Positions 16,873 to 54,124 of a stretch of 64,000 nt of DNA are shown piece by piece. The first letter of the stretch is position 1. Every line of letters begins with the position of its first letter. The stretch is from Heliocidaris erythrogramma (Eukaryota; Echinodermata; Echinoidea; Camarodonta; Echinometridae). A program made the position numbers and the translations under genes. The stretch spans positions 28,447,371-28,511,370 of the forward strand of contig CM046859.1 of the NCBI GenBank assembly GCA_025617745.1, written 5' to 3'. The notes beneath the pieces were generated by a model, which had not been told where the DNA came from, did not search any database, and was given only the letters and a program-made list of their open reading frames with translations.

Positions 16873-17669
16873 CACTCTAAAAACTCAAGTGCTATTTTTA
16901 GCACCTCAAGATTTTGAGGCAGCACCTGTAAGGGCACGCATAGGGACTGCACAAATTGTGCTAAAGTAGCACTTGTGCAAGTGCTATAATTCAACACCAG
17001 TCCAAGTGCTACTTTAACACTTTAAGCGTAAGCCTTTTTACACTTCTGGTGCTATTAGACGCATGCAGCTCGCAAAAACCACACTTCTAGTGCATTAAAT
17101 AACCCATTTTAGAGCCCCCAAAACGGCACTACTAGTGCTAACACTTTTGCACCCAATATAGTGCTAAAGAACACACACAAACAGTATGCACAAAATTACA
17201 CCTGTAGTGCTGAAAACTCACCCTTCTATAGTCTGTTAAACAGCCCTACACTAAGGTCTAGATTTTATTTTTAGATTGATATGAACTGGTTGTATACATA
17301 GATGATGTGGACTAAAACCATGGCATGTGGATTTAATCATCTGAGAATTACTTCAGACCAAGAAGTGGAGATTTAATTGTTCCATTTCGGCAATCCACAA
17401 TCGTGACGAAAAAAAGCACAAACACCGGCCGGCGCGGTCGATCGCGCCCCATGCCTGGTTGACCCCGCATGATCAACAATTTTCATGTCAACGACAACGC
17501 GAACCGTAGACGGTTGGCCACACCACACATGCTGAAACATGGCATTTCCACTTCATTGCTTTTCATCATGTTTCATATCCACCACCACAAAAATTAATGT
17601 AAATATCATATTATTTGATACCTTTATTCGCATAAAATTACAGACGTTCTAAATTTAATGGTTAAAGTT
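16873..17669 (+). repeat. Dispersed repeat unit H1, copy B (inverted to copy A)
   Basis: It starts CACTCTAAAAACTCAAGTGC after TA and matches 556-1487 in reverse. It lacks the 119-bp hAT-like insertion of copy A. Bases 17670-18060 show nothing recognisable. Confidence 0.65.
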
Positions 17670-18059
17670 GTGGGAGTATGCGATAAATTACAAACTAATC
17701 ATAATTTGAAAACTTGTGCGGATGTGAAAAGGATTGTAATTTGCTTTTAAGTACGTAATAAAAATTAGGTAACACTTTATTTTTTCGACTTGAAAAAAAT
17801 CGCGTTATTTAAAAAATTATTTTTGACCGATACTTGCGTTGATTTCTGAATAAGATTTTCATTTCTTACAAACCTGTTATAGAATTTGTGACTTTGAAAT
17901 TTCAAAGGCAGTGTCTACAGGACGTCTACTAAACCTGTGCAAAGTTTCGCGGAATTTGTGTAAGTCTGTAAAAGGGATGAAGCACCTATAACGAATGGAA
18001 ATATTTCCAATGTTTCACATCTAACTAGCTATGTTTATCCAAGTGATATTTCACTTTCT

Positions 18060-18240
18060 GAATCCAGGATAACTATACCACTTGCGTACCCAAGCGCCCC
18101 CCCCCCCGACTGGGGGAAAAAATAGTTTCCTTTAACGGGATAGTAGTCTGGGAGGTAGTGAGTTGTTCGGCCTAACTGTCCTAGAGGGGAGTTGTCCCAG
18201 GGGAGTCGTGAGGGGGGGGGGGGGGTAGTTTTTCTGATTC
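18060..18240. repeat. Poly-G/poly-C repeat fragment
   Basis: Contains GCGTACCCAAGCG followed by a C run, GTTGTCCCAGGGG words and a 14-nt G run, in the style of other foldback remnants here. Confidence 0.4.
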
Positions 18241-18298
18241 GTTTTACTGACTTATAAAATCACATATATTTTTCTTCTTTCAACTATCCGGCCACAAG

Positions 18299-18368
18299 GC
18301 ACATCTCATCTGCTAGTGCGCATTAACAACAAGATTGAAATGATCATCACAGATGCTGAAAAAACGAG
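18299..18368 (+). CDS. DEG/ENaC gene 2, tentative exon (third from last)
   Basis: A pyrimidine-rich acceptor (TTTTTCTTCTTTCAAC...AAG) precedes 70 nt that end at a GAG|GTATGA donor. The encoded TSHLLVRINNKIEMIITDAE aligns with the exon at 34619-34701 of the minus-strand paralogue (LAQINN...VIADGDKL), and the end phase (2) matches the next exon. The acceptor phase differs from the paralogue, so the 5' edge is uncertain. Upstream exons were not found. Confidence 0.6.
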
Positions 18369-18376
18369 GTATGATC

Positions 18377-18675
18377 ATAGGCGTACGGAGGGGAGAGGGT
18401 GGGGGGGGCTGAATGGCTGCACCCCCATACATAACACGATAAGTTGAATTTACCAGTATTTGGGCAACCGCCAAATCTTATTTAGGCAACGAGGGGTCTA
18501 TTATTTGTTTTGTAATTTTGTATATTTCGATGACGAAATTACATTGCTAATAGAATAAAGCATACGAAATTTTGCTCGCTTGCCTCGCTCGCTCGCAAGA
18601 TATTGAAAATGACAAGTAGATATTCCGGCAAATGACGTCAGTTCTGGACCTGAAAAACTGGGCCCGTACGCCTAT
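18377..18675. mobile_element. Foldback MITE in DEG/ENaC gene 2 intron
   Basis: The ends ATAGGCGTACGG and CCGTACGCCTAT are inverted. It lies 8 bp downstream of the exon ending at 18368 and contains a G run and TCGCTCGCTCGC. Confidence 0.6.
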
Positions 18676-18975
18676 TAGTATTACACAGGTGTGGGTAACT
18701 GTGGGTGGGTGTGTATTGGTTGTAAACTCTTAACGCAAGGCTTTTCTGTTCTTACGATATACTGATCGGATCAGAAAAAAAATCCTATGAAAAAGATCTT
18801 TGTCTTCTATATATTCGTGCAGGGCGTACTGTTAAAGAAGATCTTCCTGACCAAATCTTCCCGAAGTAAAACTGGAATAAGATTTGAATGATTAAATAAT
18901 ACAAATAATAAGTAACCACGTTTTGATAAAAAGGAGTACGGTCATAATATCACATTTTCTCTGTCTCCATTGCAG

Positions 18976-19051
18976 GCAGAATGTCGTGAACCTGGTGGTA
19001 TTTTTCGAGCAGCTCAACTATGAATTGAATCGACAGTTGGCCGTTTACACT
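18976..19051 (+). CDS. DEG/ENaC gene 2, penultimate exon
   Basis: The acceptor CTCCATTGCAG and donor ACT|GTAAGA bound 76 nt encoding QNVVNLVVFFEQLNYELNRQ LAVYT. This is the conserved beta-strand/pre-TM2 block of the DEG/ENaC family. Length (76 nt), entry phase 2 and exit phase 0 are identical to the paralogous exon at 34010-34085. Confidence 0.9.
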
Positions 19052-20172
19052 GTAAGAATCGAAATTTGAATCCATATCAGATTCATTGATATGTAAAATC
19101 TGAAAGTCATACATTGTAAATTTCATCAAGTGTATGGGAGAAGTCGCCGTGGCTTGCACTTTTATATCCCACTTTTAAATCGTTGCTTGTTTAGACACGG
19201 AATTATTATGAGAGTCAAATTCTTAATTTAACATCTCCTATTTGATAATAAACATGTAACAGCAGGCACAAATGACACTCAACGAAGTCATTACGAGGTT
19301 TATGAGGTATTTTTATTTTTATTTGAGGGTGGATCAACCCTTAATAAAAAAAACCAAAAAGAAACAGGCAAACAAATTATTTTTTTTACATTCAATCAGC
19401 AACAATAAGAAAGGCATCTGTCACAATTCAAAACAGTAGTCTGTGCTTTAAATCTATGTATATGTAAGTGTTTCAACAAGGTAATAACGTATTATTATTC
19501 GTAGAAATAAATACACCAATAAATGAGTCCCACTGTGTCTAAATATCAAATAGAACATTCCTAACATGAATAAGCAATGTTTATGACCTTACATTTCTGG
19601 TCACCTCTGATATATGCATAACAATCATCCTTCAATATAACTGTTGCCCTACTTGGCATTTCCCCACACTGTACAAATACTGTACAAGTACTTGGATACT
19701 TTTCCAGATAAGTTTTACAGTTAACTTCCAAAAAGCAATAAGCAAGTTATAGAAACAAATATGCACAAAAAAGCATGATTAATCATTAATACAGAAATAT
19801 AAATTGCCTTTTTTCTAAAGTCCTCTTTAATCATTAATACAGAAATATAAATTGCCTTTTTCCTAAAGTTCTTTTCATTTATTACATTGACTCACCCCTC
19901 TTGAGCTCTCGAGGAGAGACTCCTAAGCGAGACACCGAAACTAGACTTGAACCAACTAGTGCACCATAAGCTCCAACCAAATGATGAAGTTAGACTTCTG
20001 TAACATGAATGATGACTTCTATGACTTTCGAAGTGACATGCCAACTTTTTATATAAAACAAATATTTAAAATTCCCAACCTTTTCAACTCAAGCTCGACA
20101 AGTTTTACTTTGACATCAAAATATCCAATACTAATTATCTCTTTACCTATAGCTATTACTGTTTATCTCTTA

Positions 20173-20383
20173 CACTCTTAGAAATGTTGGGTAAATGCCA
20201 CTGGGTAAATGAAGATTGGGCATAGGTTGGTTAAATCTTGCTCAACTTTTACATGCATTTACCCAACATTGGTCAAAAATAAGAATGAAATTGGTAAAGT
20301 TTACCCAAAAGTTGGTCGGACTCATAAGGACCCTCATGTTGGGTAAAATTTGGGTAAAATTTTGCCCAATATTTCTAAGAGTG
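20173..20383. mobile_element. 211-bp CACTC-ended MITE, copy 1
   Basis: The termini CACTCTTAGAAATGTTGGG and its inverted partner enclose repeated TTGGGTAAA words. TA flanks both sides. It is nearly identical to the copy at 31576-31786, so it moved recently. Confidence 0.85.
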
Positions 20384-20934
20384 TAGTGGGCTCTTTTTTT
20401 CATGAATTCTGTAATCTGATTTGTCAGTGAGAGATAATTCCGTATTCTTGACCAATAAATTATATGTGTACACTTTAAGGGATAAAACCGTTGCACCCTG
20501 CTTGTTCTCACGGAATACGGGAAATATCTACGTTCTGGTTCCATATTCCATTCGGCCTCCGGCCTTTTGTATTGCTAATAAAATGAGATATTCCATCTCA
20601 AATATTCATACACGATTTCTTATTCCGAACGGGTGTAGCCAATAGGTTTCTGTATACCAACTCATTATGAAAAGAAGTTAATGATAGGCCTCCAAATATT
20701 TACATAGATACACATCTGGGTACACTACGGTACACAGTGTTTCTCTGTAAATTCTTCTATAGTATCATTGTCACATAATAACAGCAGGAATGTGAAAACA
20801 CAACTCACAACACTCCTTGAATAAGACACACCAGAATTGTCCACTACACATGAAATCAAATGATCTTTGAAGGTAGAGGTTTGCATAGTGGTACTGATAA
20901 CGTGGAGGTTTACGGTTCACAATGTGGTTAGTCC

Positions 20935-21455
20935 TGAAAAGGACTATTTATTTATTTTATTTATTTATTTATTATGGTATATGATGATTGACCAGCAGCA
21001 CAGGGGCTGAAGGGGTCAATTTACAATCAGATATATATGTGCATATATACAATAGAATCGCATCAAATATATAAAAAGATACATAATTGGAAGCAAAACG
21101 AAAATACTAAGATTTACGCTACACAAATAATAAGATAACAAGTGTGAAAAGTGAGAGAAAGAAAGAAAAAGTAAAGAATAGGAAAGAAAAGGGAAGAGAA
21201 AGAAGGAAGGAGATAGATAGAAAGGAGAAGATTTGGGAGCAATACATAAATATAACCAAGTTAGAAAGCCATAACCATGTAAAATGAGTCATACATCTAG
21301 GTATGGAATCTGAGAAGTGAAAATGTTTGGGATGCAAAGCGTGGGGGGGGGGGGGGGTTATTTCAAGATTCTGGCAAGGTGAGGGATGGTGGATTTTCGA
21401 TATCGTTCTGTATTGCATTTAATTGTAGGGAAGCCAGTCATGTTACGAAGCTGTC
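20935..21455 (-). repeat. LINE-like 3' region with (TAAA)-type tail
   Basis: TTTATTTATTTATTTATTAT followed by A-rich non-coding sequence resembles the reversed 3' UTR and tail of a non-LTR element. It continues beyond the transposon at 21460-22353 (to about 22540). The word AGTCCTGAAAAGGACT lies at both edges (about 20931 and 22510). No RT is visible. Confidence 0.35.
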
Positions 21456-21459
21456 TTAA

Positions 21460-22353
21460 AGGAGAATTAACCTCAAACAATAAAGACGATAGTGTTGAAA
21501 GGTGTTATTTATTCCTACTTGTTAGACTATATGGCTTCGCGTCAAAATATACGAGATCGATACGAATCAAGATTTTCTGAGCAAAATTTATCATCTGCTA
21601 GCAATATGTATCGTCTGCTAGCAATACATGGGGGCTGCCATTTTTTTATGTGTACAAGAAGATTTTCTTAATCCAAATGCCCAATTGCCTTTTTCAAAAT
21701 TAAAAACCATTTGAGATTAAAAATATAGAATAGATATGTCAATTTATTTTTTTAAACTGAAGATTTCCTTATATATTTCTGTTGAAAATCGATATTCGCT
21801 TAATATAAATCTATTTTCTAGATACTGTGACGCAATGGACGGAGCAAATTAATTCAAATTTTATGGATGCTTCTTCCCTGAGCATCTATAGCAGCAAACT
21901 ATGCATTCACCTGCTTTCGGATAATGGGACTTGAAAAGTCAGAATGCATGCTGCATACTGCTCTGTTTGGCAAACCAAGAAAATAGATTTTTGTTAAGCA
22001 AAACCAGACAATTTAAAAGTATCATTATAAAGATTTAATTTTTATAAATCATGTAAACACCCACTTTATATTTTTCGTCACATATGGGATTTTAGGTAAT
22101 GAAGAAAAGCAATTTAGGTCTTGGATTCAAAATATCTTCCTGACCGGAACATTTCTCAATGGTTCATGTACAAATCCAAATCAGCAAGAAAATGGCAACC
22201 CCATGTAAATGAGTAGGAGACGATACCGGGTGTTGGAATATCTTTATTTATACCCTTTTCTGATATCTTATTAGAAAATGATTTAGGCCAATAAGTAGGA
22301 ATATATTACACCTTTCAATATAAGTAAATTTGTACTCAGGGGTTAATTCTCCT
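21460..22353. mobile_element. TTAA-flanked non-autonomous DNA transposon (AGGAGAATTAA ends)
   Basis: The terminal repeats AGGAGAATTAACC and GGTTAATTCTCCT lie exactly between TTAA at 21456-21459 and 22354-22357, with inverted sub-terminal blocks (GAAAGGTGT...). It is the same family as 32295-32843 and a partial copy near 25092. piggyBac/Kolobok-like by its TTAA target. No transposase. Confidence 0.8.
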
Positions 22354-22989
22354 TTAAATTTGAATTACATCTAGGGAGGGGAAGAAGGTGTTTGTGGTTA
22401 TCAGATTTTTTGATTTTGAGTAAGAAGAAGAAAGTGGAGAAAAGTTGAGAGGAGAAGAAAAGGAGATAGAAATTCAGAGAGTGTAGAAGTAATCTTTCTT
22501 GAAAGTGTGAAGTCCTGAAAAGGACTGTAAACCAGATGAGAAGGCTGAGAGTGAATCAAGTTTCCTCTTTGAGGTTTCAATCTAATGATGCATGTCAAAT
22601 ACAATATATAATTTCACTAAGAACTTACCACAGATTCTGCAGTAACACTTTTTCTGTCAAATCACCTCCATTTGCCTAAGCGGTGAGTGGATGTTCTATG
22701 TTCATCCCTCTCACTCTATGAATGTGGCAAAAAAAGTCCTTGCTCTCTACCCTTTTTGATCCAAGGTCAAAGTTGACTTCCCCTTTTAGGGATCTTCTCA
22801 GAAGCACGCTAAAAGGATCTCTTGTTCAGAGATCTAGATCCCTTCATTCAGGGACCTCCTCCACAAACAAAATTAAGAAACATGTTCTATTATGTACCCT
22901 TTATAAACATTTTGATCTGTCACAAACATAATGACATTGAAGAAGCGAGGGAAACAACGGGGGGTAACGTCTTGATCGATTTTTTCAAA

Positions 22990-23023
22990 ATTGTTTCCAG
23001 TACAGTATAGAAAGATAGGGGGG

Positions 23024-23055
<32 letters not shown>

Positions 23056-23075
23056 GAGGAAGATCTTTTTATTTT
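22990..23075. repeat. (GA)n/(GACA)n simple repeat
   Basis: GAGAGAGAGACAGACAGACA tract in the intron, about 200 bp before the last exon of DEG/ENaC gene 2. Confidence 0.85.
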
Positions 23076-23276
23076 GTTGAACACTTCATAGGCCAAACGA
23101 AACATCACTGTTAGTGCCGTTTTGTTTTTTTCTTAAACGTTCGAGAATTCGGAGTAGGTAAGATTTTTGTTTAATATCGATATTTCCCGCCAATGATAAT
23201 TCTTTTAACATTATTATTCTATCTGAAACCCCCCCCCCCCCCCCTCCCGCCCCCGCAATTTTCTCGTTTAACACAG

Positions 23277-23624
23277 GTGGAGAGTCTTCTAGGTAGCGTA
23301 GGAGGTCTTTTAGGTCTCTACCTCGGAATATCATTCATGTCTATCGGTGAGATTATAATCCTCCTTCTCGGCTTCCTCAAATTTTTTAGCGGGAAAGTTC
23401 TTTGCTCGTCGTGCAGATCTACAAGGGAAGCAGACGACGGTAGACAGAAATCGAAATTTACTCAGACGTCACCAGATATGGACGAGTACAATGAAGGAAC
23501 GCGTCGACCTCCATGGTACCGTCGTTTGGTGGCGTTAGCTACACTGTTTGTGTTTTCTTCGATGATGGCGGTTGTCGCTCTCGTGGTACTGGTCGAACTT
23601 GGAATCATAAGTATTAATTTGTGA
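23277..23624 (+). CDS. DEG/ENaC gene 2, last exon with extra C-terminal hydrophobic segment
   Basis: The acceptor TTTAACACAG precedes 115 codons and a TGA. Residues 1-34 are the DEG/ENaC pore and TM2: VESLLGSVGGLLGLYLGISF with the selectivity-filter triad GIS, then GEIIILLLGF. A polar cytoplasmic stretch follows. Residues 84-112 (LVALATLFVF...VVLVELGIIS) form a further strongly hydrophobic helix preceded by RRPPWYRR. DEG/ENaC subunits normally have only two membrane segments, and the paralogue at 31894 ends without this one. Function as a cation channel is inferred from the family. Confidence 0.88.
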   Translation: MESLLGSVGGLLGLYLGISFMSIGEIIILLLGFLKFFSGKVLCSSCRSTREADDGRQKSKFTQTSPDMDEYNEGTRRPPWYRRLVALATLFVFSSMMAVVALVVLVELGIISINL

Positions 23625-23790
23625 TAATGTACAAAGCAGTAAATAAGTATTTATGACATGTGTTAAATGACCCCTGCCATCAAAATGCAAGTTGATACGT
23701 GTTGGTGTGTAGTCCTACATACATCTCATATTTTGATATATGAACTTCTAAATATGTTCTAAATACACGGAAATATGTAGAAAACACTAT

Positions 23791-23993
23791 GGCCCGAATT
23801 CACAAAGGAGGTTTGGTACCATGGTTTAAACCCCCTCCTGGGGTTTTTAAGCGTACGCGTGCACGGAATCCGATCCAATCCTATATTTTCTTTGAGCGCG
23901 CGCATGGGCAATGTGCGCTTATTTACGCCTATTTCAGTACGCTTGAGGTTTAAACCATGCTTTAGGTTTAAACCTCCTTCGTGAATTCGGGCC
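23791..23993. mobile_element. Harbinger-type MITE
   Basis: The terminal repeats GGCCCGAATTCACAAAGGAG and CTTCGTGAATTCGGGCC are flanked by TAT on both sides (3-bp duplication). Inner GGTTTAAACC blocks are also inverted. Size 203 bp. The G-rich start and 3-bp target fit PIF/Harbinger derivatives. Confidence 0.75.
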
Positions 23994-23999
23994 TATGTC

Positions 24000-24770
24000 C
24001 TTGATAATGCAAGTGTAATTAAATTCTTTTGCAACTCTGAACTTTGCAAAATAGGACTTCATAACTGTTTTTTTTTATTATTGATAATTTTATTTTTATT
24101 CTAATGTGAAAAACGAAGGACAATATAATTTATGAAATATCACTTAGTCAGTTTTGAAGATTGTTAACAACGCCCCCCCCCCCCCTTGAAAAAAAAGGAA
24201 GATAATCTCATGTAACTCTCGTTCCCCGTGTATAGGTTTTGTTTATTTCAAATATGCAAAATAAAACCTATATGATAATAAAAACCAACAAAATTAACAA
24301 AATTTCATTGTAAAAACCTGTTTTTCTTGTTTATAATTATTTGCATCTATATTTTCTGTTTTTATTATTTATTTTCTTGTAAATTAAATTCTTTGTAATG
24401 CTGCTGGAAAGCAAATGTCTACGTTTGTGTACAATAATCAAATACACCTGGCACTGAGAGGCTCCAGTTGAAATTATGGATTCTCTGAGGTGACCGGCAT
24501 AGCACTATGTTTTGAGGGGCGCAGCCCCGAAAAAAAATAACTGTGCTAGTTACCGAAAAATCCATAATTTCCGTTGGTGCCTCGAAAAGAGTGTTAGAGC
24601 AATCAATTGCGTAGCTTCTTTTCATGACGGATATGATTATTATCTGTTATCTGTTATCTTACATTACGGTCTGCCTTCGACTAAATTTGTATTTCTAATT
24701 TCTTAGGACCGATAACTTTTACTTTGAGAAAACTGGGTCCCCAGCAACAGGGATAGGGTGCTGAGAAAAA
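24000..24770. other. Unassigned A/T-rich spacer
   Basis: Contains a 13-nt C run near 24173 and poly-T/poly-A stretches. I see no gene. The frames at 24419-24706 have no recognisable domain. Confidence 0.4.
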
Positions 24771-24772
24771 GG

Positions 24773-24774
<2 letters not shown>

Positions 24775-24808
<34 letters not shown>

Positions 24809-25010
24809 AAGCAAGAGTGTGTGTGTGTGTGTGTGCCGGGGGGGGTAGAAATGTAGGTAGTGACACTTCAGGAGCAGGACGAGGGAGGTGTTGAGAAAAA
24901 AAGGAGGAGAAAGATATATGTAGAGAGAGAGAGAGAGGGTGGGGAGGGAGAGTGTGAGAGAGGTGGTAGAAATAGCGAGGCAAAACCTAGAGAAAGAGAG
25001 AGGGATTGGA
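24775..25010. repeat. (GA)n and (GT)n simple-repeat tract
   Basis: Long AGAGAGAG and GTGTGTGT runs with interspersed purines. The overlapping frames (serine/leucine-rich on the minus strand) are artefacts of this composition. Confidence 0.85.
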
Positions 25011-25091
25011 GGGAGCAATGTCAATATAATTGTCAGTGCCTACAATGCTCCTTTAGGATAACATCAAGAGAAGCCTTTATGGGTTATAGGA

Positions 25092-25310
25092 GAATGGTAC
25101 CCTGGGGAAATATCCATTTTAATGAAAGGAGAGGATAGATAGAAGCAATTTTTTAAAAAGTTCCATCAAAATCGGTTACGAAATGAAAAAGTTATGAAAG
25201 TTTGAAAAGTCTCAAGTTACTTTCTATGGCAATGCTCAAATTGGGAATGTTGCTTCAAAATGGGAGGTTTAGCAGTATAACTCTCAATATGTTTTATACA
25301 CAAAATTTCA
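25092..25310. mobile_element. Partial copy of the AGGAGAAT (TTAA) transposon family
   Basis: AGGAGAATGGTACCCTGGGG and AAAATCGGTTACGAAATG match the left half of the element at 32295-32843 closely, through TGTTGCTTCAAAATGG. The right end is not found. Bases 25311-26127 show only A/T-rich sequence and a GT-rich patch near 25985. Confidence 0.65.
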
Positions 25311-26127
25311 TATTTATCATATTTATCACGTCTGTAACATGACACTTTAGCTTGGATAAGGGTGGCCCATTATTTTCATTTACCACACAATGTGGGGATA
25401 AATATAAAGAATTCTATCGAATTCATACATGATAAGATGTAAAGTCTGTCCATGAACAAAAACCGGGTTCAGAACTTTGTAAATGTTCGGATTTTTAAAA
25501 CAAATAAGAATACTGTTGATATCATATCGCAGAGTCAGCGTAACATAGGAATATTTTTCAATGGCTTATTTAACTCTTGGGGGCTGTGACAGGAACAAAA
25601 TCAAAAGCTTTCACGACAGCCAACGCAGAAAAAGAAAATTGGATTAATTTTATTTTATCAGACAAAATGGTAGGCAGTACATTCTACATTTATTTTAAGC
25701 ACATTTACTTCAACTTATACAAATTTTAGTCACTTTCATTTTCATCTCAAAGTATTAGATAACACTAGTAAACTCTTGTTCAATAATTATGTTAATGGAG
25801 GTTCTAAATTATCTTTATTTATGCTAATTACTGGACGAAGTATAAGTTAGTTCAGCTTATTAATCTATAATTTTACGCTTAAATATTATGTAGGCTCAAT
25901 TGGGAAGCCCAAAATCTATTAAAAGTATATCGAAGTATCCAATAGCTTTGATATGGTATACATAAAAAAACGGTTGTTCTTATGTATGTGTGTGTGTGTT
26001 TGTGGGTGTGTTTGCGTGTGTGCGTGGTCGTACATGCGTGTGTACATCTGGTCCTGGAACATTTGTGTCTTTGAATAGGACCGTACACTGTAGGTAATAA
26101 CATTATCTCAGTAATACCCCCTTAAAG

Positions 26128-26712
26128 CTCCCTTTACACTAGCCTTTTGACAAGGCCCTCGTGACTTGGCTATTTTTCTCGGCAAGTAAGCTAGTAGTGG
26201 CTGCATAACAAGACTAGCCGCCCAGCCCGGTGAATGCGCGATCGAGCGACGTGAGTCCGAGGGCCTTTTGGAACCTGGCCTGTATTTCTTATGCTATCCT
26301 TTGTTCCTAGCGAGGATCTGCTACCTTATAGGTAGGAGCCAATCAGCGAACGTATCTTCGCTTGACGTCAGCATAAATTTGGTATGCAAATTCGCCTTCA
26401 TCTCGAGCTAGCTAGCTTGCTCGGCACCCGGCGCTGCGGCCCGTGCAAGCTACATCAATCATGGAAAGCAAGCCCCGCAGATACCGTTGTGATTGGTCGA
26501 TAATCCTCGGTAGGCGTGTTTTAGCATACGAATGTCAACTCGTGAATAATTCATATCGGACTATGGAAACCCAGGTTCCAAAAGGCCTCGCGACTAAAGT
26601 CGCTCGATAGCGCGTTCACCAGGGCCGTGTTGATTCTTTTCGTCGCCGGCTAATCTCATCTCAGGCACAGCATGACGAGGAAAATAGCCAAGTCAAAAGG
26701 CTACCTTTACAC
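26128..26712. mobile_element. Foldback element, arms about 150 bp
   Basis: The left arm CTTTACACTAGCCTTTTGAC...GGCCTTTTGGAACCTGG is inverted at the right as CCAGGTTCCAAAAGGCC...GTCAAAAGGCTACCTTTACAC. Short blocks such as GATCGAGCGAC are conserved. No coding potential. Confidence 0.7.
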
Positions 26713-27480
26713 CGGAGGAAGTTTCCGCTACGTCCTTGAAATTAAAAAAAAATGCCTAGGACGTAGCGCCAACTTCGTTGTTTTCGAAAAATGTGAAATC
26801 GTCCCATGCATGCTACGTTCGCGCCACGTCCTTACTAAGTTCATGTTGCGTTGGTGGTGTTATTGTGCGCGCAGACGCGGTCCGTGTGGCGTCGAACGGT
26901 TCTCGCTACGTCCGAGCAGATTGCGACTCGTTGTACCTACGTCTCCGTCACGTGAGTCTTGTGTCTGTTGATTGCAGCCATTTGATGGAGAAGAAGCACA
27001 TTGTGCCTATGCATATCCATGACTTGAATATAACTGATAGCAATTGGGACTTGGACTCGGCATGTATACCCTTTTCCCAGCCATGGACGTGCCTTGGACT
27101 TGCCATGAAAATGTACAGCGCAGTAATAACGTAGCAAGCACTTCTGTAACGTAGAGTTGACGTAACGCGGGCATAAAAGAGGACGTAGCGACAATTACAT
27201 ATGCGTATTGGCCACGCAGTAGACATGGACGGAGTTGTTGCTACGTTCTTTACGTGTCCGCTACGTCTATGCTACGTCGATGGAGCTGTTAGTAGGTCCT
27301 AAGAAGGTCCTTACTGCGTCATTACTACGCACTGTTCAGACGGCGCTCCCGCTACGTGGAATTTGGACTTGTTCGAAGTCCACGTAGCGGAAAATCGGTC
27401 TCCGGAGACCATGGACTATGCCACGTCAATAACAGTTCTCGCTACGCCCTCAGTACGCTGTAGCAGTTCCCACTGCGTCA
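26713..27480. repeat. CpG-rich block with scattered CTACGTC/ACGTAG motifs
   Basis: About twenty copies of CTACG(T) or its complement occur irregularly on both strands, e.g. CCGCTACGTCC, GGACGTAGCG and ATGCTACGTCGATG. The base composition differs sharply from the A/T-rich flanks. It could be the sub-terminal motif region of a DNA transposon whose far end I cannot define. Frames inside are not convincing. Confidence 0.45.
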
Positions 27481-28382
27481 TGGCCATTTATGCACTGCAT
27501 TCATGGCCAAAATATCTGTGAAGCACTCTTGAGGGAATAATAGCCAGGATAAGGATAACTTGGACTCCACAGGGCTTACTCTACTCACGGCTGGTACAAC
27601 GGAAGATGCCGGAACAAAGAAGTTCGTAAAATATATTGAAAATGGCGTGGAAATCAAATATATTTTCAGGGAGAGCACTCTGAAATAAAATCGACATTCA
27701 CGATAAGACTCGATTATTATTTTAATTATTGTTTGTTTATTTGACAAAATTTAACGTGCAACAAAATGCATACGGCATGTCTATATAAAACATATTACAG
27801 TCAAGAGTAATGTAGTTTAGTAGGAAGGTCCATACACACAAAGGATAGCCTTAAAGCTTACCTTGCTGAAATTCTCGGATTATCAAAGATTCCACTCATG
27901 TAAAATTCATGGGACCCGTCACCTACAAGCAAGCATGAGATGTTATTTCTATAGACAAAACACTTACAGAAATGAAGATATCATAAGTGCAAGAAGAAAA
28001 TAGGCATAAAAAATAATATTACAGTTTCTAAATACAGGTGGTAAGTCATCTACATGTACTATATGCAAAAATGGAATTTCAGCATAAAAATAGGCATATT
28101 AATTTGGATATTAGACGATGAAAAACAGCGTTACTGTGCAATTTTAAATTCTCTGCTGTATTTTGAATATACCTCGGTTTTACTTTCCCCGCCCCACCCC
28201 ACGATACCGTTGCTGACTATACCATTTCTTCTATTACTACTGTCACAACTATTATTTCTACGACGACGACGACTACTACTACTGCTACTACTACTATAAC
28301 TATAGTAGTTATAAATAATACTAATGTATGAATCTCCAATTCAAATAGTAATAGTAGTAGTATACTACTATTTTTACTATCT
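27481..28382. other. Unassigned spacer
   Basis: No supported gene. A minus-strand frame at 27478-27747 has no recognisable domain. A CTACTACTAC trinucleotide tract lies at 28260-28300. Confidence 0.4.
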
Positions 28383-28583
28383 ATCACTACTATAGTTATA
28401 TTGCGCCTCTCCTGCGGTTCAACTGTTCAAAGCGCTTCCGCAGTGCTTTATTACCCATATTATGAGTATCTTAGCGCCACAGATATGTAACGCTTTAGCA
28501 TAACAGGTACCCATGTATATCTGAGTGAGGAATGACAAAATGTAGTTTTAATATATTGCCGGGATTCGAACCCTTAGCCTTTG
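28383..28583 (-). repeat. SINE-like repeat with tRNA B-box
   Basis: On the minus strand GGGTTCGAATCCCGGC (28559-28577) is a strong RNA polymerase III B-box. It is followed by about 180 bp including GGGTACCTGTTATG, AAGCGCTTTGAAC and GGCGCAATATAAC, words typical of tRNA-derived SINE bodies. The tRNA head is cut by the MITE at 28584. Confidence 0.45.
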
Positions 28584-28718
28584 GCTTTTGCTAAACAGTC
28601 GGGTAACGTCGCGTCGCGTTGGTAGAAATTTTCGAACATTTTTCAGGAAGGTGTCTTGAAGGGGACAAATTGAAAAAGAGTCCATCTCAGTATGATTTTG
28701 CCCGTTTAGCAAAAGCCC
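28584..28718. mobile_element. Short MITE, copy 1
   Basis: The ends GGCTTTTGCTAAAC and GTTTAGCAAAAGCC are inverted. The body (ACGTCGCGTCGCGTTGGTAG, GGAAGGTGTCTTGAAGGGGA) matches 31174-31300 in opposite orientation. Confidence 0.7.
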
Positions 28719-28828
28719 AACATGACAGGCCGTCTTGGTTAGATATATCAAGTAAATCAATGGTCAAGAAAGTCTTGGCCTATTTTATTCATATATATCT
28801 ATGCGTGTGTATGTGTGTGTGTGTAAGT

Positions 28829-29006
28829 TCGTACGCAGCGGGGGGGGGGGGGGGCAGGGGGGGCAGTTGCCCCCCCAGAAATTTCAAAATCATACTTTTT
28901 TTAAATAGGGTTTTAGACTTTTAAATGATCCAATAATAAAAAGCGATCATCTTGCCCCCCCCCCCCCCCCCCCCCCCCCCAGGAAAAAAATTCTGCGTAC
29001 GGCCTT
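28829..29006. repeat. Poly-G/poly-C foldback repeat
   Basis: The ends GTACGCAGC and CTGCGTAC are inverted around 14-nt G and 27-nt C runs. (GT)n lies on both sides. Bases 29010-29905 show nothing supported. Confidence 0.55.
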
Positions 29007-29908
29007 GTGTGTGTGTGTGTATTTATACACACCAGATGGTGGGATTCACCATGTGTGACGATGTCAAGAGGATATTCCCTACATTGGTAATCTTAACTTT
29101 CAGACATTCATAACTTTCTTTTTTGTTTGACTTGTTTACTCGTACCATTCTGCTTCTCTGATTTTCATGCTTCAACTCAGTTGCTTCAATATTGTTTCCC
29201 CTGTAAGTTTTGTGGCAGTGACAACTCCAACATTTCCTTCAATATTGAACTTATTCTGCAGTCCATGAAGTAGCCGAGTCGAGTCCAGTCGATGTACAAT
29301 ATGTGTATTAGGAAGTTACCAAAACTAGTTACTGCCATACTTGTCTCTCTTGCCTGTGTGCCACAAGCTGCTTATGTATCTTCATATTTTATCCTGAGGT
29401 ATTTAAAAAGAGTTATAATGTTAAAAAATTATAGACAAAAAGAAAACTTTCTTTGTATTCTTTTTCTTGTTTTGTGAATGATGAGCGTCCAATCTGTGTG
29501 CGGATGTAGCTCTATTTCTAAATCTTTATCATTCTATCATATCTTTGTCTTTTCTCATCTGATTTTGTTTGCTTTATATTAACTAGGATATTTTTTTAGT
29601 ACAAAATCCCCCCCGTAAAAAAAAGCCTTTTCTCTTTCATTTCATTTCTTTAAATTTCGTTTGTTTTATCCAGTAGAGCTAAGTGATATACATAGAAATT
29701 CTACACTGGATTTTGGAACTCTGTCTCAAACATTAATTATGATGATTTCTGCAATTTTTTTGCTTTCCGTCTTTACTTTCGTTATGTTATTCTGTGATTC
29801 CTTTTATCTGTTCTTCCTTTTATCTGTTCTTCCATCTTTTATGTTACTCTTTATATTCATCCATCTATCATTCCTTATAGTCTATCTTTCGTAGTGTTAT
29901 TCTTTTTT

Positions 29909-30426
29909 GTCCCCGCCGAACGAAGTTCGCGAGGGGACTATGAAACGAACTCCGTTCGTGTGTGCGTGTGTGTGTCCGTCCGTCCGTCCGTCCGTCCGTG
30001 TGTGCTCAAAAAGTTAGAAAATGCTACTTCTCCGTCATTTCTTGGCCGATTTTGATTCTGATTGTTTTATCTGATAGGGCTGAGTGGGGGCTTCCAAACT
30101 TCTACACAAAATCATGAAATTCATCAATTATGCAAATTTATTCAAAATCGACCAAAAATGCTACTTCTCCTCTATTTCACACCGTATTTTGAATCTGATT
30201 GTTTTATCTGATAGGGCTGGGTAGGGGCTGTCAAACCTCTACACAGAATTTTGAAATTCATTAATTATGCAAATTTATTGTAATTTATTCAAAATCAATA
30301 GAAAATGCATTTATAATCATAAAACATTAATTTGATAATTCATTTCTCACATTTATCTTCAAGGTTCTATCAGAAATTCCATAAATTAACAGCCATTCCA
30401 CAGATCTATACACTTCTGGCGGGGAC
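29909..30426. mobile_element. GTCCCCGCC-ended DNA transposon, non-autonomous
   Basis: The ends GTCCCCGCC and GGCGGGGAC are inverted. The left end continues GAACGAAGTTCGCGAGGGGA and a (CCGT)n run. Inside, a block of about 125 bp beginning AAAATGCTACTTCTCC and ending TTATGCAAATTTAT is tandemly duplicated. This repeat type is widespread in marine invertebrates. Confidence 0.7.
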
Positions 30427-30469
30427 ATATATACTAATTCAGTTATTTTTAATCCTTTTATTAATTTTT

Positions 30470-31173
30470 CTTTCCACCTTTCCTTTCATTACGTTATTCT
30501 TTTATTGCTTTTATCATTTTGTTTTCCATCTTTCATAATGTTACTGTTTATATTTATTCTTTTTATCCTCTTTTTTTTATTGCTTTCCATCTTCACTTTG
30601 TTATTTTTTGTTCCCTTTTATCATCTTCTCTTCCACCTTTCTTCATGTTTATATTTATCTTTTTATCATTTTTCTCTCTATCTCTCGCTTTGTCATTTCT
30701 TGCTTTTATCCTTCTATCAATTATCTTTCCATCCTTCCTCTCGTTATGATATTCTTTGTTTCCTGTTATCATTTTCTCCCCCGCCTTCCTCACGTTAATC
30801 TTTATCCTTCTATCATTTCTCTCTGTCTTTCTTTATATAAGTTAAACTTTTTTTATCCTATCATTTTGTTTTCCTTTCATCTTTTCTTTCGTTATGTTAT
30901 TCCTTTATTCAAATTATCATCTTCTCTTCTATCTTTCCTTATGTTACTCTTAATATCTTTATCCTTCTATCATTTATGTCTCTATCTTTCTTTATGTTAT
31001 TCTTTGTTTTTATCCACTTATTTTTACTTTCCAACTTTCCTTTTGTTGTATTCTTTGTTTCCTTTCATCATATTTTCTTCCATCCCTCCTACCCTTCTAT
31101 TCTCTCTTCATAGTTCATGTTTTTCTTTGCATTATCCTTCTATTATTTTCTTTATTCCCTTGTTTGTCGTTTT
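30470..31173 (+). repeat. Pyrimidine-rich minisatellite
   Basis: Diverged tandem units of roughly 60-70 bp follow the pattern TTATCATCTTCTCTTCCATC, TTTC(A/G)TTATGTTATTC and TTTGTTTCCTTT. The long hydrophobic-looking frames here (30608-31246) come from the TTT/CTT composition, not from a gene. Confidence 0.75.
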
Positions 31174-31300
31174 TAGCCTGAAAACGGGAAAAATCATACT
31201 GAGATGGACTCTTTTTCAATTTGTCCCCTTGAAGACACCTTCCTGAAAAATGTTCGAAAATTTCTACCAACGCGACGCGACGTTACCCGACTGTTTAGCA
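31174..31300. mobile_element. Short MITE, copy 2 (inverted to 28584)
   Basis: Reverse-complement match to 28584-28718 over about 115 bp, including CGCGACGCGACGTTACCCGA. Its left end is degraded. Confidence 0.7.
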
Positions 31301-31575
31301 AAAGCCTAGCCTTTCACTTGAGAGTCAAGTTGAATGAACCACTACATCCTGACATTTCAATACCAATATTATTTTTTTTGTAAAAATCATTTTTAGACCT
31401 AATCAGTACGAGAAAAATAACTCACTGAATGTCAAGCATTATATCCAGACTAAACATCAATTGAATTCATATCTTATTCCTACGTGCTTACACTTTTTTC
31501 TACAATACAGCCATGTATGAATCTCGAATTCATTTTTTTCTCAGAACCTATACCCAGGCGAGACCTCTTTCCCTC

Positions 31576-31786
31576 CACTCTTAGAAATGTTGGGTAAATG
31601 CCACTGGGTAAATGAAGATTGGACATAGGTTGGTTAAATCTTGCTCAACTTTTACATGCATTTACCCAACATTGGTCAAAAATAACAATGAAATTGGTAA
31701 AGTTTACCCAAAAGTTGGTCGGACTCATAAGGACCCTCATGTTGGGTTAAATTTGGGTAAAATTTTGCCCAATATTTCTAAGAGTG
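31576..31786. mobile_element. 211-bp CACTC-ended MITE, copy 2
   Basis: Nearly identical to 20173-20383. It is flanked by TC on both sides here, whereas copy 1 has TA, which shows a 2-bp target duplication of free sequence. Confidence 0.85.
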
Positions 31787-31893
31787 TCTAACGAGTTTGT
31801 TTCTGCCAATTAACTCAATCCCCCTTAAAAATGCAATTCATATGTAAGCATGTTGTGAAGAAACACTTCCAAAATCCATCATAATGGTTCAGA

Positions 31894-32073
31894 CTAAAGT
31901 GTTGTTGTACTGGGACTTCTTGCATTATCATGACGGCGCAATCGAGAAACTACTTTTTTGCGACAGATTCTGATGACGCCGGTGATTAGGGTACAAAGTT
32001 CACCAAATGACAAGAATGACATGCCGAGGTAAAGGCCCAACAATCCTCCGAGGCTTCCAAAAAGACTCTCCAC
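31894..32073 (-). CDS. DEG/ENaC gene 1, last exon (pore and TM2)
   Basis: 59 codons and a TAG. It encodes VESLFGSLGGLLGLYLGMSF, then LSFGELCTLITGV and a basic tail ending SPSTTTL. The acceptor is CATCCTACAG. No third membrane segment follows, unlike gene 2. Confidence 0.93.
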   Translation of the reverse strand: MESLFGSLGGLLGLYLGMSFLSFGELCTLITGVIRICRKKVVSRLRRHDNARSPSTTTL

Positions 32074-32184
32074 CTGTAGGATGTCCAAAAAAAATTATTT
32101 AAAATTAATAATAACCACCGCCACCACCACAACAAAATAATGATGATAATGATAACAACAGAGTAATAATAGTAATAGTAACAA

Positions 32185-32217
<33 letters not shown>

Positions 32218-35200
32218 AGTGAAAGTTGTCAATATGGGAGACAAGAAAAGCGGTCTTTATGAGCAGGTGGTCTTTATGTACAGGTCCCTTTTGAAGGAGA
32301 ATGAAACCCTGGGGAAATATCAATTTCAATGACAAGAGAGGATAGAGAGAAGCAATTTGTTCCATCAAAATCGGTTACGAAATGAAAAAGTTATGAAAGT
32401 TTGAAAAGTCTCAATTTACTTTCTATGGCGATCTTCAAATTGGCAATGTTGCTTCAAAATGGCAGGTTTATATATATGTTCTGTACACAAACATTCACAT
32501 TTTCTCCATTATCTCTAAAGATGCTGCTTGTCTTTTTGTGAACTCACATATGTTACGTCAAATACATTTTCCCATGATATATCTTGAGCTAAGGAGACAA
32601 GCTGCACCTTAAGAGATAATGTACAAAACATATGGACAGTTGTACCACTGAACCTGTCACTATGAAACAAATTTGCTAATTTGAGGATCGCCATAGAAAG
32701 TAAATTGAGACTTTTCAAACTTATTTAACTTTCTCATGTTATAACCGATTTTGATAGAACTGTTTTTAAATTGCTTCTCTCTATACTCTCTTTTGTTGAG
32801 ATATTGATATTGATATTGATATTTTCCCGGGCTTAATTCTCCTTTAATACATGTTTCAATGAGAAACCGAAAATATGATCTTTATAGACAGGTGGTCTTT
32901 CTATACAGGTGGTCGCTAAAGCAGGTTTGACTGTACTACTTCTACTACAACTGTGACTACTAGAACTACTACTACTGTGACTACTAGAACTACTACTACT
33001 ACTACTAATATTATTACTACTACTACTACCACTACTACTACTGCTACGACCTATCTAAAAATAATTTTATGTTGCGCTGAATACACAATGTATCTAAGCA
33101 CATTATACATTTTATACCGTAAAATTTCAACCAAATTATACAGAACAGCATAAGCAATCAACATAATAATGACCCCCCAAAAATAAATAAATAACAAGGA
33201 CAGATCTGAATTACACAGTATAATGAATATACATGCAGTGTACAGTGATATTCTATAAATAAAAGTTGCTTATTAATTATCCAGCAAAGAGTGGAGCCGA
33301 TGTAGCCTCCCGCCCCCATAATGGGTCTCCGTCACACGGGGCTGCCCTCGGCCTATAGGATAACATCCGCCCCCTGCGTTTATTGATTTCTGAATGATAA
33401 CACTTAGTTATAGCTGCAAGTCAGTTGATAATACATAATTTCTGCTTTTCATAATTTATAAAGGAGTTTTGCGTTATGTGTCCAAAAGCTATTGAATTCT
33501 TAAATCATGATAATCATTGAGATTTGAAATTGAAATTAATATTTATTTCCTTCTCATCAGTACAATGTTGTATACAAAGGATATATCTGTAGCAATGTGG
33601 TGAGCATAAAGTGCAATACATTACATAATTCAGAAAATAGAAGGAGGTGAAAAACTGGAAAGCAAAGCTTGTGTTGGGAACGCCATTAACAATTAAACAC
33701 AAATACTGAAAGAAGATTATTCTAATTATGAGTACCAGTTTTGCATATGGGCACCTGTTGGAAGTTTCTCCCGTATGAAAGTCACTTGTTGACTGACTTA
33801 ATAAATCATTTTTTTATATCATATATCATGATATCATATTCGTATGGTATGATTCTGATAGCATACTGAATAGATTATTTTGACATTGATGTATTAATAA
33901 CCTCATATCAATACTTCATCTATTATTCATTACATAAAAATACAGCCCATTTATTCAAATTCTGCGTCTACTGGTACAAAACGAGCTTAAATTTCCTTTC
34001 AATACATACCGTGTAGACTGGAATCTGTTGATTTAGTTCATAGTTCAGTTGCTCGTAGTATACAACCAGCTTTAAGACGTTCTCTCTGTCAACACAACAA
34101 TGGTAAAATAGCATTAATTGTGTGTCTCATCTATGAGCATAAAATACACCAGTTATAAGGTGAATACACATATACATGCGCTCTAACATGAGTTGTGTAA
34201 AACTTTTACCAAATATTATGTACATTTTACCCAACTTATTCCGATGGTGACAATGAAACTGATTGAATACAAACTGCAGATTTTAGAAGTCATTCATGCT
34301 TTTACACATTTTACATGTGGTATATAGTAAGTGCATTTGCGCAAGTCAACTGTTTCCAGATTTGCTTTATACTCAAAAGAAAGATAGATGTTTTACCCTT
34401 TAGAATTATTATAAAGAAGAAAAAGTAAACAGCGAATGATTCAGTTTTAGTACAATTTACATCCCGAATTGTATTTTTGCTACAAGAACATGACGTACTT
34501 CGTTAAATAATGGGTATTTTTGAAGAGTTTTATCATTGTTCAAGTAAATAAATACAAAGTGATTAATGACGAGCAATATTATACTAAGATTATGAAATAC
34601 ATATCTGGTATATTTTACCTCAGCTTGTCGCCATCCGCAATGACTTTTTTTATCCCACTGTCATGATTGTTGATCTGGGCTAGCTGTTTGGCAAGGAAAG
34701 GCTTCCAAATAAAAAGAACCATAGAAAAAAATGTTGGAAACAATTATTTAAAGTGAGCTGAATTAATTTTTTCTAAACTATAAAAAAAAATAGCAGGCAG
34801 TTAAAAGAAAGAATACATAGATCATTCAGAATCAATGACTTTGAAGGTACTGTCTTAGCTTTGGTCGGTGGTGATCTTTAAATCTTCAAATTTCCTGAAC
34901 AATTTTGATACACTTTTCAGTAGCAAAAACAAAGTCCGAAATATTGCCCGGCTTTTAATTAAAGAAAATATTCATTATTAAACTGATAGCTCTAGCTGCA
35001 GCTTGAATAACCCTTTTCTACGTTTATTTCCCTATCATCATGATCATACTCTGTTAATACTGATCAAATGTGTTATTCAGTAAAGCAATAAAAATACAAT
35101 ATTCAAACACTATCATGATTATAACTTTCCATGGTAAGGAAAACTATTTCCACAAAAGTAAAACTAGAGGCAGAAGGGAAATGGCCCTATGTCACCAAAA

Positions 35201-38200
35201 CTACGATTTCTCAAAAACGTAGGACATTTCCACCACTCTAATCGACGTAGAATTACCTCGTATCCAGCGGATGGCCAAAATGATGTTGAAATGGTTCGTT
35301 GGTATGTCTCCTCCCTTTGAATACAAGCAAATAACTTAAAGTCATTTCAATATCAATACTCTTTATTGTGATGAGATTAAAAGTGATACCATTATAAAGC
35401 TCTTCCATTAACATAACCAATATATTTGAGTTTTTGGTTTCTACATCTTCTTTTAGATCATACTATATTTATCATGAACATAAATTAGATACAAACTTTC
35501 AGACTTATAATTTCTTCAACATATATAAATAACAGACATTAATTCTAATTAGTTATTTGAGCATTTACAGGGATTTACGCATGACCATAGATCATCATAA
35601 CCAGAAGAGTAATTTCATAGGATTCCCCTACCATTCTAGCCACATAAGCTTGCTTTCTGTCGAATTTTGGTCTGTTTTCAGACCAATATTAAAGTTAAGT
35701 AGTACTTTTAAACGAAGGCTAACGAGCGCGAAAGAATAAGAAGGATTTGAGGAAAAGCCCCACAAGACCGAACGTCCATGAAACAGACATTCCACGAACT
35801 GTTAGCCTCCTGTTTCTGTCTCGTAGACTTTCTGACGATCTGTAAGAAGTCCCACGAGATCGAATATTTCGCGGACCTTTAAGGTGTCCTGAAACCACAG
35901 AAATCACCTTAGACTGATGCTTTCGCTCTTGCGTTCCTGCGGTCTCCGTGACCTGTAGACAATAGTCTAATAATACCGGGATTTATACGCTGTGTAAAGT
36001 TCTTTGGCCACCTACTTGTAACTTGTAACTAGTAAGGGGTTAAATAAAAGTGATGATGTGATTATCATAGCGATTGATATACACTCGAAAGACGCTGGCT
36101 TCCATTTTACCCAATTTATCATGTATATGGTAAAAAGGGAACATGCATTTGTATTGAGTAAGATTTTACTTAATATTGGGTAAAATATGCCCAGAATTTA
36201 GTGAAATTAACATTATTTGGGGTAGCATTTCATTCTTCTACACAGCATAAATGCATGTTCCCCTTTTACTCAACATTTGGTAAAAGTTTGCCCAACTTGT
36301 TTTGGATCGTAAGTATTGGAACATGCGTTTGTTAATATGCATTGATATCTCTTATTTCCATAATTATGCTATACCTGCATGGTATCGGACAAGCACACTC
36401 CAGATCATTTATGTGGTACAGATATTCTACCAACTGTCGACACTTGTCTGTGGTAAAAGACCAAAAATTGCAGTTAGATGAGTGACAATACGCCACTTAA
36501 TATCATTCTTTCCAATTTGTAATCAGAGTGAATATGAAAACGTTTACAAGCAAACAATCCGTTTGGACGTGCGCACGTCTTTCGAAATGTTTCAAAGCAT
36601 TTGAATAAAAGTGTTTAATATTTGGCTGGGTCATGTTGGTCAGATGAAAATCCAAGCCCTAACCCTGATAACTTTTTCCCAAACTAATCCTAAACCTAAC
36701 CATTACTCCTAAAGCCCTTTGAAATATTTCAGGAACGTAGGTAGCCCAAATGGGATGTTGGACCAATGTGACTAAATAAGGTTAACATTGATGAGATGAA
36801 GACTTATCAATCATGTCAATTAGAAGATCAATTGGACTTAATTACAACCTTATAATTCCCAGGAAATATCAACTGGCTAGGTTGTTACATAACTTGATTA
36901 TTACAATTTTTAAAACGTTTTATCATTGTTTAAGGTGCCCATATAGTACTTTCTAAAAATTTTGAAGCCCCCTGTAACTGCAAGGAAAAGGGCGCTATAG
37001 GGCCTCCAAAACTTTGTGGATTTGGTGGGGTAGTCAAGTCATATACATTGTACCTTGGGTTGCATTAAGAGAGGTGCACTGCCTATAGTTGCTAAACCTG
37101 ATGTCTGTGATACAATCACACTTCTCAAGCAGTTCATCTTGCAGACACTGCTTCAGGCAGGCGTTGACAGTGTAGGAGAATATCTCTGACTTAAAGTCGG
37201 TGCCTTCTCCATTCCAGGAGCATTGCTCACCATAACGTCCACCTAACCGCGTGATGTTTACCTGAATGCAGAGACAAATGAAAATATCTAAGGCCATGTC
37301 AAGTCATGATGACAGTCACAATGATTGAAAATACAGTGTCGTTATGATAATATTTTGGATGTAGAAAAACTAAGAGTCAACACGAAATGCTACATTTTAA
37401 AAGAAATAACAAGGGACGTACGTCACTATAGGTGGGTGTGTGTGTGTGGGGGGGGGGGGGCTGAGGTATATGAGGTGTTTTTGGTGAGACCCCTCCCCCT
37501 AACACGTTCCCTTCGGCAGAATTCGTATGTGTGAACCTTTTGGAAAACTTCAAAGATCGTGTATATTGTTGTTTCTGTTTTTCCGATGTACTGTTTATGG
37601 TATTGTGAACAGGTTATGAGGTAGAAACAACAATATACACGACATTTAATAACACGTGATCAGAAATCCGAAACCAACATAAAACATTACCATACACAGT
37701 CCATTTCAATCTCCCCTCACACACAGTAGAAAACGCTAAAATAATCGGGGTAGAACTCATCAACAACAAATCACATGACACAATCTTACACAGAGAATCA
37801 TACTGGATCAACAAGACTCAAGACACTCCACCTGCATGGCATTAATGTCGACCAATAAATGAATGACCATCGATATAGGTCATATAAGAAGGCACCCATA
37901 TTACTATATATACCCCCTCCCAATAATTACTACCCGCTATTTACAACATTGATTGAGTCTCATAGCAATGTGTATGTTGCATACATAGCTTTATATAAAA
38001 TGTATTGCCATAGTTACTTGTGTGTATCATTGCCCTCTCGGTGAATCATTTTTTTTTTTTTTTTTTAAATATTCGTCATTACCTGATGAGCCCTTACTGT
38101 GTACTAAACTTATGATTATGTACCAAACTTATAGGTTTACATTTATGTACTTTACCAATATCATTTCATTCGAGTAAAACTACAACTATTTCTTTGCACT

Positions 38201-52681: not shown

Positions 52682-52859
52682 CTGTTAATTTTGACGATGA
52701 AGATAGTAATAATAGTATTATTTATACAACCTAGAGGTTCTAGAGGAAATGTCAGTTTTTCTCAATTTTTGTTATTTCGGGGTTTTTTCAGAGAAAATGT
52801 CAGAAACTCTTCATGGTTTTGATTGTCAGAGAAAAATGGGAGCGAATCATACAGCGCGC

Positions 52860-52901
52860 AGTAAATGCGAGGACTTTTTCTTTCTTTCTTTCTTACCCCC
52901 C

Positions 52902-52932
<31 letters not shown>

Positions 52933-52935
52933 GTT
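52860..52935. repeat. Homopyrimidine tract
   Basis: (TTTC)n, a 14-nt C run and a 23-nt T run. The neighbouring sequence 52700-53248, where the missing TM1 exon might have been expected, holds no recognisable exon. Confidence 0.85.
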
Positions 52936-53248
52936 GCTTGTTATACAATTTTGGAATGAAAAAGTCGCTCACAGGTGTCTTGGGGGACCCACTAAAAAGC
53001 CTGTAAGGGTATGTAGTACAATTAAGAGTGGGTAGGAGTCACATGAAATTCTATCATAATAACAATTATATTCATAGACGGATTCAGTGGTGCACAAAGG
53101 GGACAGCCTCCCTCCCTTCTGGAAGAAAAAAAAAGACTGGGGGAAAAGTGAAAAGTGGAGAAAAAGCAGAAGAGATGACAAAAAGATGATGTCGGGGAAT
53201 TCATGTTAAACCCGTCCCTTTAATGAGCGAGTCTGGAAGGGCCGGGGA

Positions 53249-53870
53249 TCAATTCAATTCAATTCAATTCAATTCAATTTCGGTTTATTAATATAAAATA
53301 CACAATGCAGTAGTCTAAGGACTAATAGTGTAATGTTTATATAAAATGTGCATCAGAAATAGGAATAATTTATATACTATAGAAATCAGTAAATAATCAA
53401 AATTATTATAAAAGTACATACATGAAACTATATTCATATTGTAATAACTGATAATGATAAAGAAATGACCGTCCGGTTGCGAAGGTATTGAGTAAAAGAG
53501 GTGATTTTTCAAACCCACTTTTAAAACAAAATATGTAAATAAAATCTTAGCTCGAATATTATGTGGTAAAATTGCTTGATAATGCTATATAAGGTAAAAT
53601 ATCAAGTTAAGTCAAAAGAATTATTTTAAGAAGCAAAGTGAATCTGTGTGTAATATTCAATTACATCAAAATGAGACAGAAATTATGCATCTGTATAATA
53701 CACTTATAAAAGTAAGTTCAAATGTTCGACCAATTGCTATAAGAGAGTGGAAATTATCAAAGTACAAATGTCACGATGTGAGACATAAACTAAGAAATGT
53801 ACGTGTATGTACATCTGTTAATTGTTATGTTACTGTATTGCACAAATTCTAGATAGCTCTCAAATATATA
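53249..53870 (-). mobile_element. LINE 3' UTR fragment with (GAATT)n tail
   Basis: ATTCAATTCAATTCAATTC at 53251-53280 is the same microsatellite tail as on the LINE at 41022, here followed by A/T-rich non-coding sequence (TTTATTAATATAAAATACAC). No RT is left. The upstream extent is uncertain. Confidence 0.45.
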
Positions 53871-54022
53871 TTAGTGGAAATTATTACATTATAAATATCT
53901 CATTGAAAACTATTGCACAAATGCTATTATTGATTTTTCACAATAGATTGTATACTGATGGTGAGTTTATACAAGTTATAATATTAGTAGAATAAGACAA
54001 TAATTAAGAACATTAAGTAAAG

Positions 54023-54124
54023 GATAACACACGAGTAACTGTCCGTTCGTGTGTGAGAATGGGTTGAGGGCGTAGCCCGAAGCCCATTCTCACCCACGAA
54101 CGGACAGTTACGAGTTGTGTTATA
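54023..54124. repeat. 102-bp hairpin palindrome
   Basis: ATAACACACGAGTAACTGTC and CGTTCGTGTGTGAGAATGGG are followed by a GTAGCCC turn and the inverted copy (CCCATTCTCACCCACGAACG, GACAGTTACGAGTTGTGTTA). Arms are about 48 bp with few mismatches. Confidence 0.8.

Follow-up and report, generated by a model that had tools for sequence, protein, structure and literature searches.

A truncated DEG/ENaC gene copy and a predicted third hydrophobic segment in its intact parent

The plus-strand DEG/ENaC exons of the window (the whole analysed stretch of 64,000 nucleotides, C7:28447371-28511370 of its own 1.06-Gb assembly) are best explained as a truncated copy of a gene that lies intact farther to the left on C7, and this parent is predicted to encode a three-segment subunit whose additional segment would re-enter the membrane (probability of this overall reading about 0.75). 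The sequence-only reading had proposed that the window encodes a DEG/ENaC subunit whose C-terminus bears an additional, third hydrophobic segment. That description applies to the parent, where a 525-residue frame matches the ASC family, and does not apply to the window copy. For the parent, a predicted product of this kind is well supported by sequence. If true, a three-pass subunit would be a membrane architecture unseen in the matched solved DEG/ENaC members. The case also illustrates that duplication can leave a last exon that looks convincing yet is no gene.

The window copy and its parent gene

Two plus-strand channel exons are found in the window (exons A and B; Table 1). Exon B follows an AG acceptor at 23275-23276 and its frame is open to the TGA. 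No further convincing plus-strand channel exon was found in the window with an ASIC probe, the exons of the minus-strand gene, motif patterns or splice-site enumeration, the Pfam scan for upstream exons covering part of the region; nor was a TM1, an ectodomain or a start for this copy found there. The 10 kb flanking the window on its left likewise showed no channel exon. Of a complete channel exon set, the last two exons are all that these searches recovered for the copy, where a plus-strand channel gene had been proposed from the sequence alone. Because no TM1, ectodomain and start were found, the copy should make no channel alone, and it is almost certainly a 5'-truncated duplicate of a DEG/ENaC gene. 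The upstream exon had been thought to begin at 18976; since the exon before it in the parent has a phase-0 end, the start moves to 18980. The parent counterpart of exon A lies at C7:28360537-28360608. A cysteine-rich piece at 17705-17755 was considered as an upstream exon and dropped, as its frame stops at once and it corresponds to an intron in the parent.

Table 1. Channel-related features of the window, in window coordinates
Feature	Position	Strand	Remarks
Segmental duplication, window part	17657..60426	.	Collinear, insertions and gaps aside, with G000:C7:28358270-28386200
Exon A, 24 codons (NVVNLVVFFEQLNYELNRQLAVYT)	18980..19051	+	Phase 0-0; AG/GT sites; parent protein identical
Exon B, last exon of the truncated DEG/ENaC copy	23277..23624	+	115 codons and TGA; phase-0 start
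Pore, selectivity filter and TM2, exon residues 1-42	23277..23402	+	Pfam ASC; model helix 2-43
Polar linker, exon residues 43-83	23403..23525	+	Low model confidence; CSSC, RRPPWYRR
Third hydrophobic segment, exon residues 84-115	23526..23621	+	KD19 peak 2.58; model helix 79-114
Minus paralogue, last exon	31897..32073	-	59 residues, without third segment
Minus paralogue, exon matching exon A (NVLKLVVYYEQLNYELNQQIPVYT)	34010..34081	-	
Minus paralogue, exon region EETYQRTISTSFWPSAGYE	35236..35313	-	
Minus paralogue, exon region with CACPIPC	36374..36448	-	
Minus paralogue, cysteine-rich exon region	37055..37261	-	
Minus paralogue, palm exon region	38716..38883	-	
Minus paralogue, exon region YGNCFTFN	47140..47253	-	
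Minus paralogue, exon region HQAEDFILQCSF	49139..49318	-	
Minus paralogue, exon region with DFPAVTICN	52434..52688	-	

A family search of the assembly gave 46 ASC matches, including further ones on the same chromosome. The intact plus-strand parent gene (G000:C7:28322140-28363312) lies ~107 kb to the left of the window copy, which is the offset between the two copies, and its ten exons are joined across nine AG/GT introns into a single frame; its start-codon exon was not found in the fetched C7 stretches. The predicted product matches Pfam ASC (PF00858) over positions 1-454 of 455 (E 3.9e-84) and shares with DEG/ENaC channels a TM1, a cysteine-rich ectodomain, FPAVTICN, LNYE and a GG.LGL pore followed by TM2. 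Its hydrophobic peaks fall at 45-63, at 426-444 and within 493-525, the first two, resembling TM1 and TM2, flanking an ectodomain with 14 cysteines. The selectivity-filter stretch GGLLGLYLGIS fits the DEG/ENaC motif GG.LGL..G.S with its G-x-S type filter. The nearest solved relative by sequence is ASIC2 (6l6p, E 8e-44), and in each of the 32 hits of the PDB search the best stretch ends at or before residue 463. The C-terminal ~87 residues (439-525), which extend past the Pfam match and hold the third hydrophobic segment, are where the parent differs from DEG/ENaC channels. At its other end, the parent has TTFYG (C7:28322140-28322339) where five relatives have TTAHG, TTMHG or TTHG, so that Tyr-Gly replaces the His-Gly motif preceding TM1, a gating motif.

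Comparison of the parent with the minus-strand paralogue over 370 codons gave dN 0.18 and dS 0.81 by NG86 (0.18 and 0.70 by maximum likelihood), which indicates purifying selection on the body of the parent gene. The window exons alone (exon A and residues 1-28 of exon B) gave dN 0.18 and dS 1.40, and since the parent body is constrained, this purifying signal can be inherited from the parent.

The most likely origin of the window copy is duplication of a block of DNA that carried along the last two exons of the parent. The left edge of the duplication, at ~17657, is sharp, with unrelated sequence further left, and it corresponds to a point 0.4 kb past the parent's eighth listed exon, so that only the last two exons were copied; the block reaches at least window position 60426 and at least C7:28386200, its right edge lying beyond both. 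The parent's last exon (G000:C7:28362965-28363312) encodes 109 of 115 residues identically to exon B, and within the third segment V92A is the sole difference. Over the aligned part that was counted, substitutions between the copies number 6/420 in exons (exon A 0/72, residues 1-42 of exon B 2/126, tail 4/222) against 156/7545 in noncoding sequence, a count to which a 216-base dispersed repeat, aligned out of line, adds sites but no differences (Fisher p = 0.48). All six exonic substitutions change the amino acid. Because the exonic rate is about the noncoding one, no constraint on the tail since copying is visible; with one copy presumably dead and one live, this test has little power.

Two other accounts of the window copy were weighed against duplication. 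Exons A and B would be part of a complete gene of their own if its upstream exons lay beyond the left end of the window: the genes concerned do have introns as long as 8 and 22 kb, and C7:28386201-28437399 was covered by the family search only, which listed no plus-strand family match there and had missed several exons of the parent. The position of the left edge, beyond which the earlier exons were not copied along, and the empty 10 kb next to the window make such a gene very improbable. Alternatively, the window copy may represent the second haplotype, or a structural variant of that haplotype, which the assembly placed beside the first. The ~2% of substitutions between the copies lies within the heterozygosity of broadcast-spawning marine animals, and the minus-gene exons are nearly identical in both copies; however, neither the window nor the fetched C7 stretches contain any N, and the abrupt end of similarity at the left edge is unexpected for a simple second haplotype, so that this account appears unlikely.

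The third hydrophobic segment

The GLYLGISF pore and TM2 recognized in exon B by the sequence-only reading are borne out by a Pfam match (ASC profile 428-454 against residues 2-28, E 6e-4), which as a short piece falls under the curated cut-off. Against solved DEG/ENaC channels, the pore and TM2 of this exon gave weak matches, the best being to FaNaC1 (E 0.016). Translation of the exon also agrees with the proposed polar stretch and RRPPWYRR ahead of a hydrophobic C-terminus. The claim that residues 84-112 are hydrophobic without interruption has to be corrected, as T89, S94, S95, E107 and S112 lie inside; the charge-free core is residues 84-106 (23 residues). A single viral-contig match to part of the linker is regarded as chance.

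By the Kyte-Doolittle measure (KD, 19-residue window) the third segment exceeds TM2, with maxima of 2.58 and 2.25; summed without weighting, the biological insertion scale gives -2.06 for the segment as against 0.09 for TM2. An AlphaFold2 model of exon B, made from the single sequence and with a mean pLDDT of 67, contains the two helices given in Table 1; residues 81-115 have block pLDDT values of 81-85, and most of residues 42-68, in the linker with its two cysteines, lie below 50. Residues 42-83 carry nine K/R and seven acidic residues and no basic residue occurs past 106, a pattern that fits a helix running outward; an inserted third segment with an outward C-terminus is consistent with it.

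How easily such a tail arises by chance was judged by simulating local noncoding DNA from its dinucleotides: out of 200000 tails of 73 codons 1791 were open, and 11 of these 1791 reached KD>=2.4 in the last 36 residues. In the actual sequence of the window, 145 frames of 73 aa or more run to a stop, and five of them, exon B included, pass the same threshold; both counts concern a tail picked for being striking and are not corrected probabilities. To the eye the other four frames look F/S/L-rich, and the third segment is V/A/M-rich.

Synonymous codon use of residues 84-115 leans toward noncoding: a score as low came up in 0.55% of coding resamples, and one as high in 56% of noncoding resamples. 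This test is weak, because one of the 12 control pieces assumed to be coding scores likewise, namely the minus-strand gene's last exon (0.35% and 23%). Another control, the TRIM frame of the window, is low against coding and far above noncoding.

Related last exons and the status of the tail

The minus strand of the window carries most of a convergent DEG/ENaC paralogue in nine exon regions (31897-52688), but no TM1 exon for this gene turned up there. As far as found, it has the same exon plan as the parent, and 261 of 370 aligned residues are identical. It differs from the parent in ending in a short basic tail without a third segment; that the neighbouring paralogue stops in this way had been noted correctly beforehand.

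When the entire last exon was searched against the genome, at least 12 matches came up, and among those listed the tail was covered only in the two C7 copies, apart from a weak match at C6:11896787 (36%, two stops, E 0.3) that is put down to chance. A third segment was present in 0/12 other distinct loci, namely the minus-strand gene (counted as one with its C7 copy), nine on C8 (36.460, 36.437, 33.769, 25.887, 11.621, 11.593, 11.576, 28.865 and 28.812 Mb), one on C3 (11.691 Mb) and one on C16 (two copies counted as one). The 11 loci on C8, C3 and C16 have the same pore exon as the parent, but their tails are short or polar: in those long enough for a 19-residue window beyond residue ~36-40, KD reaches 0.6 at most, and the tail at C8:11.593 Mb was assessed by eye. 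With the segment in one of 13 distinct last exons, gain of the tail is confined to the parent gene among the last exons read. The two DEG/ENaC pore stretches on C16 (C16:5456000 and C16:6366100), ~910 kb apart, have identical printed translations and in-frame stops upstream, and may be pseudogene copies.

It is very probable that the tail is translated in the parent, and insertion of the third segment into the membrane is favoured, if less firmly. Whether selection has kept the segment is a more evenly balanced matter, and retention is a tentative proposal. The tail may be a former 3' UTR, read through after loss of the ancestral stop, in which case the hydrophobic C-terminus would be functionless and perhaps a liability. 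The occurrence of the segment in one of the 13 last exons accords with such an event, as do its T content (0.39, against 0.31-0.34 nearby), its noncoding-like codon use and the divergence of the two copies at about the noncoding rate. There is a precedent in yeast, where, according to PMC7005711, transmembrane domains are readily encoded by thymine-rich intergenic DNA. Against read-through stand the rarity of comparable length and hydrophobicity under the local noncoding model and a composition unlike that of the other four hydrophobic frames. The balance leaves read-through a serious candidate, with roughly equal odds for a neutral tail of this origin and for one kept by selection. A translated segment may also be cut off, re-entrant or flat on the membrane, with the C-terminus staying cytoplasmic. 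E107 within the 29-residue stretch would suit this, and channel tails can have membrane-surface helices. Both hydrophobicity scales, on the other hand, give stronger values than for the accepted TM2, and the lack of basic residues past 106 favours a helix running outward; a cytoplasmic C-terminus is therefore the less likely outcome.

Two transmembrane domains or helices are stated in PMC9822975 and PMC9949801. Among the open-access titles and abstract openings listed, a set outside which most subscription papers fall, none described a degenerin/ENaC protein with a transmembrane segment beyond these two. The predicted third, strongly hydrophobic segment of the parent would depart from the family's two-helix plan with both ends in the cytoplasm. 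By analogy with the DEG/ENaC family, TM2 would bring the chain into the cytoplasm; a linker of ~40 residues would follow, and a third helix would then re-enter the membrane, with only the final few residues protruding on the outer side. In this way the tail, polar in the relatives read, would become membrane-anchored. One may speculate that the helix serves as an extra anchor beside the pore, fixing the juxtamembrane tail and affecting assembly or trafficking; an effect of the segment on trafficking or gating is likewise conjecture. The full form of the proposal, a selectively maintained three-pass subunit whose C-terminus faces outward, with three extra helices per trimer around the two-helix pore, is rather doubtful. 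Insertion of the third helix, if it occurs, would break the two-helix plan of a well-studied channel family, and the parent would offer a natural way to probe the purpose of the cytosolic tail, with relatives of the same exon plan but without the segment, the minus-strand paralogue above all, as clean comparisons.

Neighbouring elements

To the left of the duplication edge, window 11033-12934 (+) holds an intronless TRIM-type frame of 633 codons with RING and B-box (Pfam). A ~900-base repeat occurs at 6156-7077 and 62997-63901 of the window, ~94-96% identical, and also at C7:28319963, 28354122, 28359462 and 28363538, in or beside the parent gene; one of these C7 copies lies in the 3' flank directly past the parent's last exon. 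The ~212-base elements at window 20171-20386 and 31576-31787 are 98.6% identical to each other. The first of them is 100% identical to an element at C7:28366047, which occupies a different place in the duplicated block, and this suggests that the element has been recently mobile. Right after exon B, a ~200-base stretch (window 23791-23993) with the inverted ends GGCCCGAATTC...GAATTCGGGCC resembles, by eye, a small inverted-repeat transposon, and the parent copy has another repeat inside it. On the minus strand, an open frame of 715 codons at window 41445-43592 looks, by eye, like a LINE reverse transcriptase.
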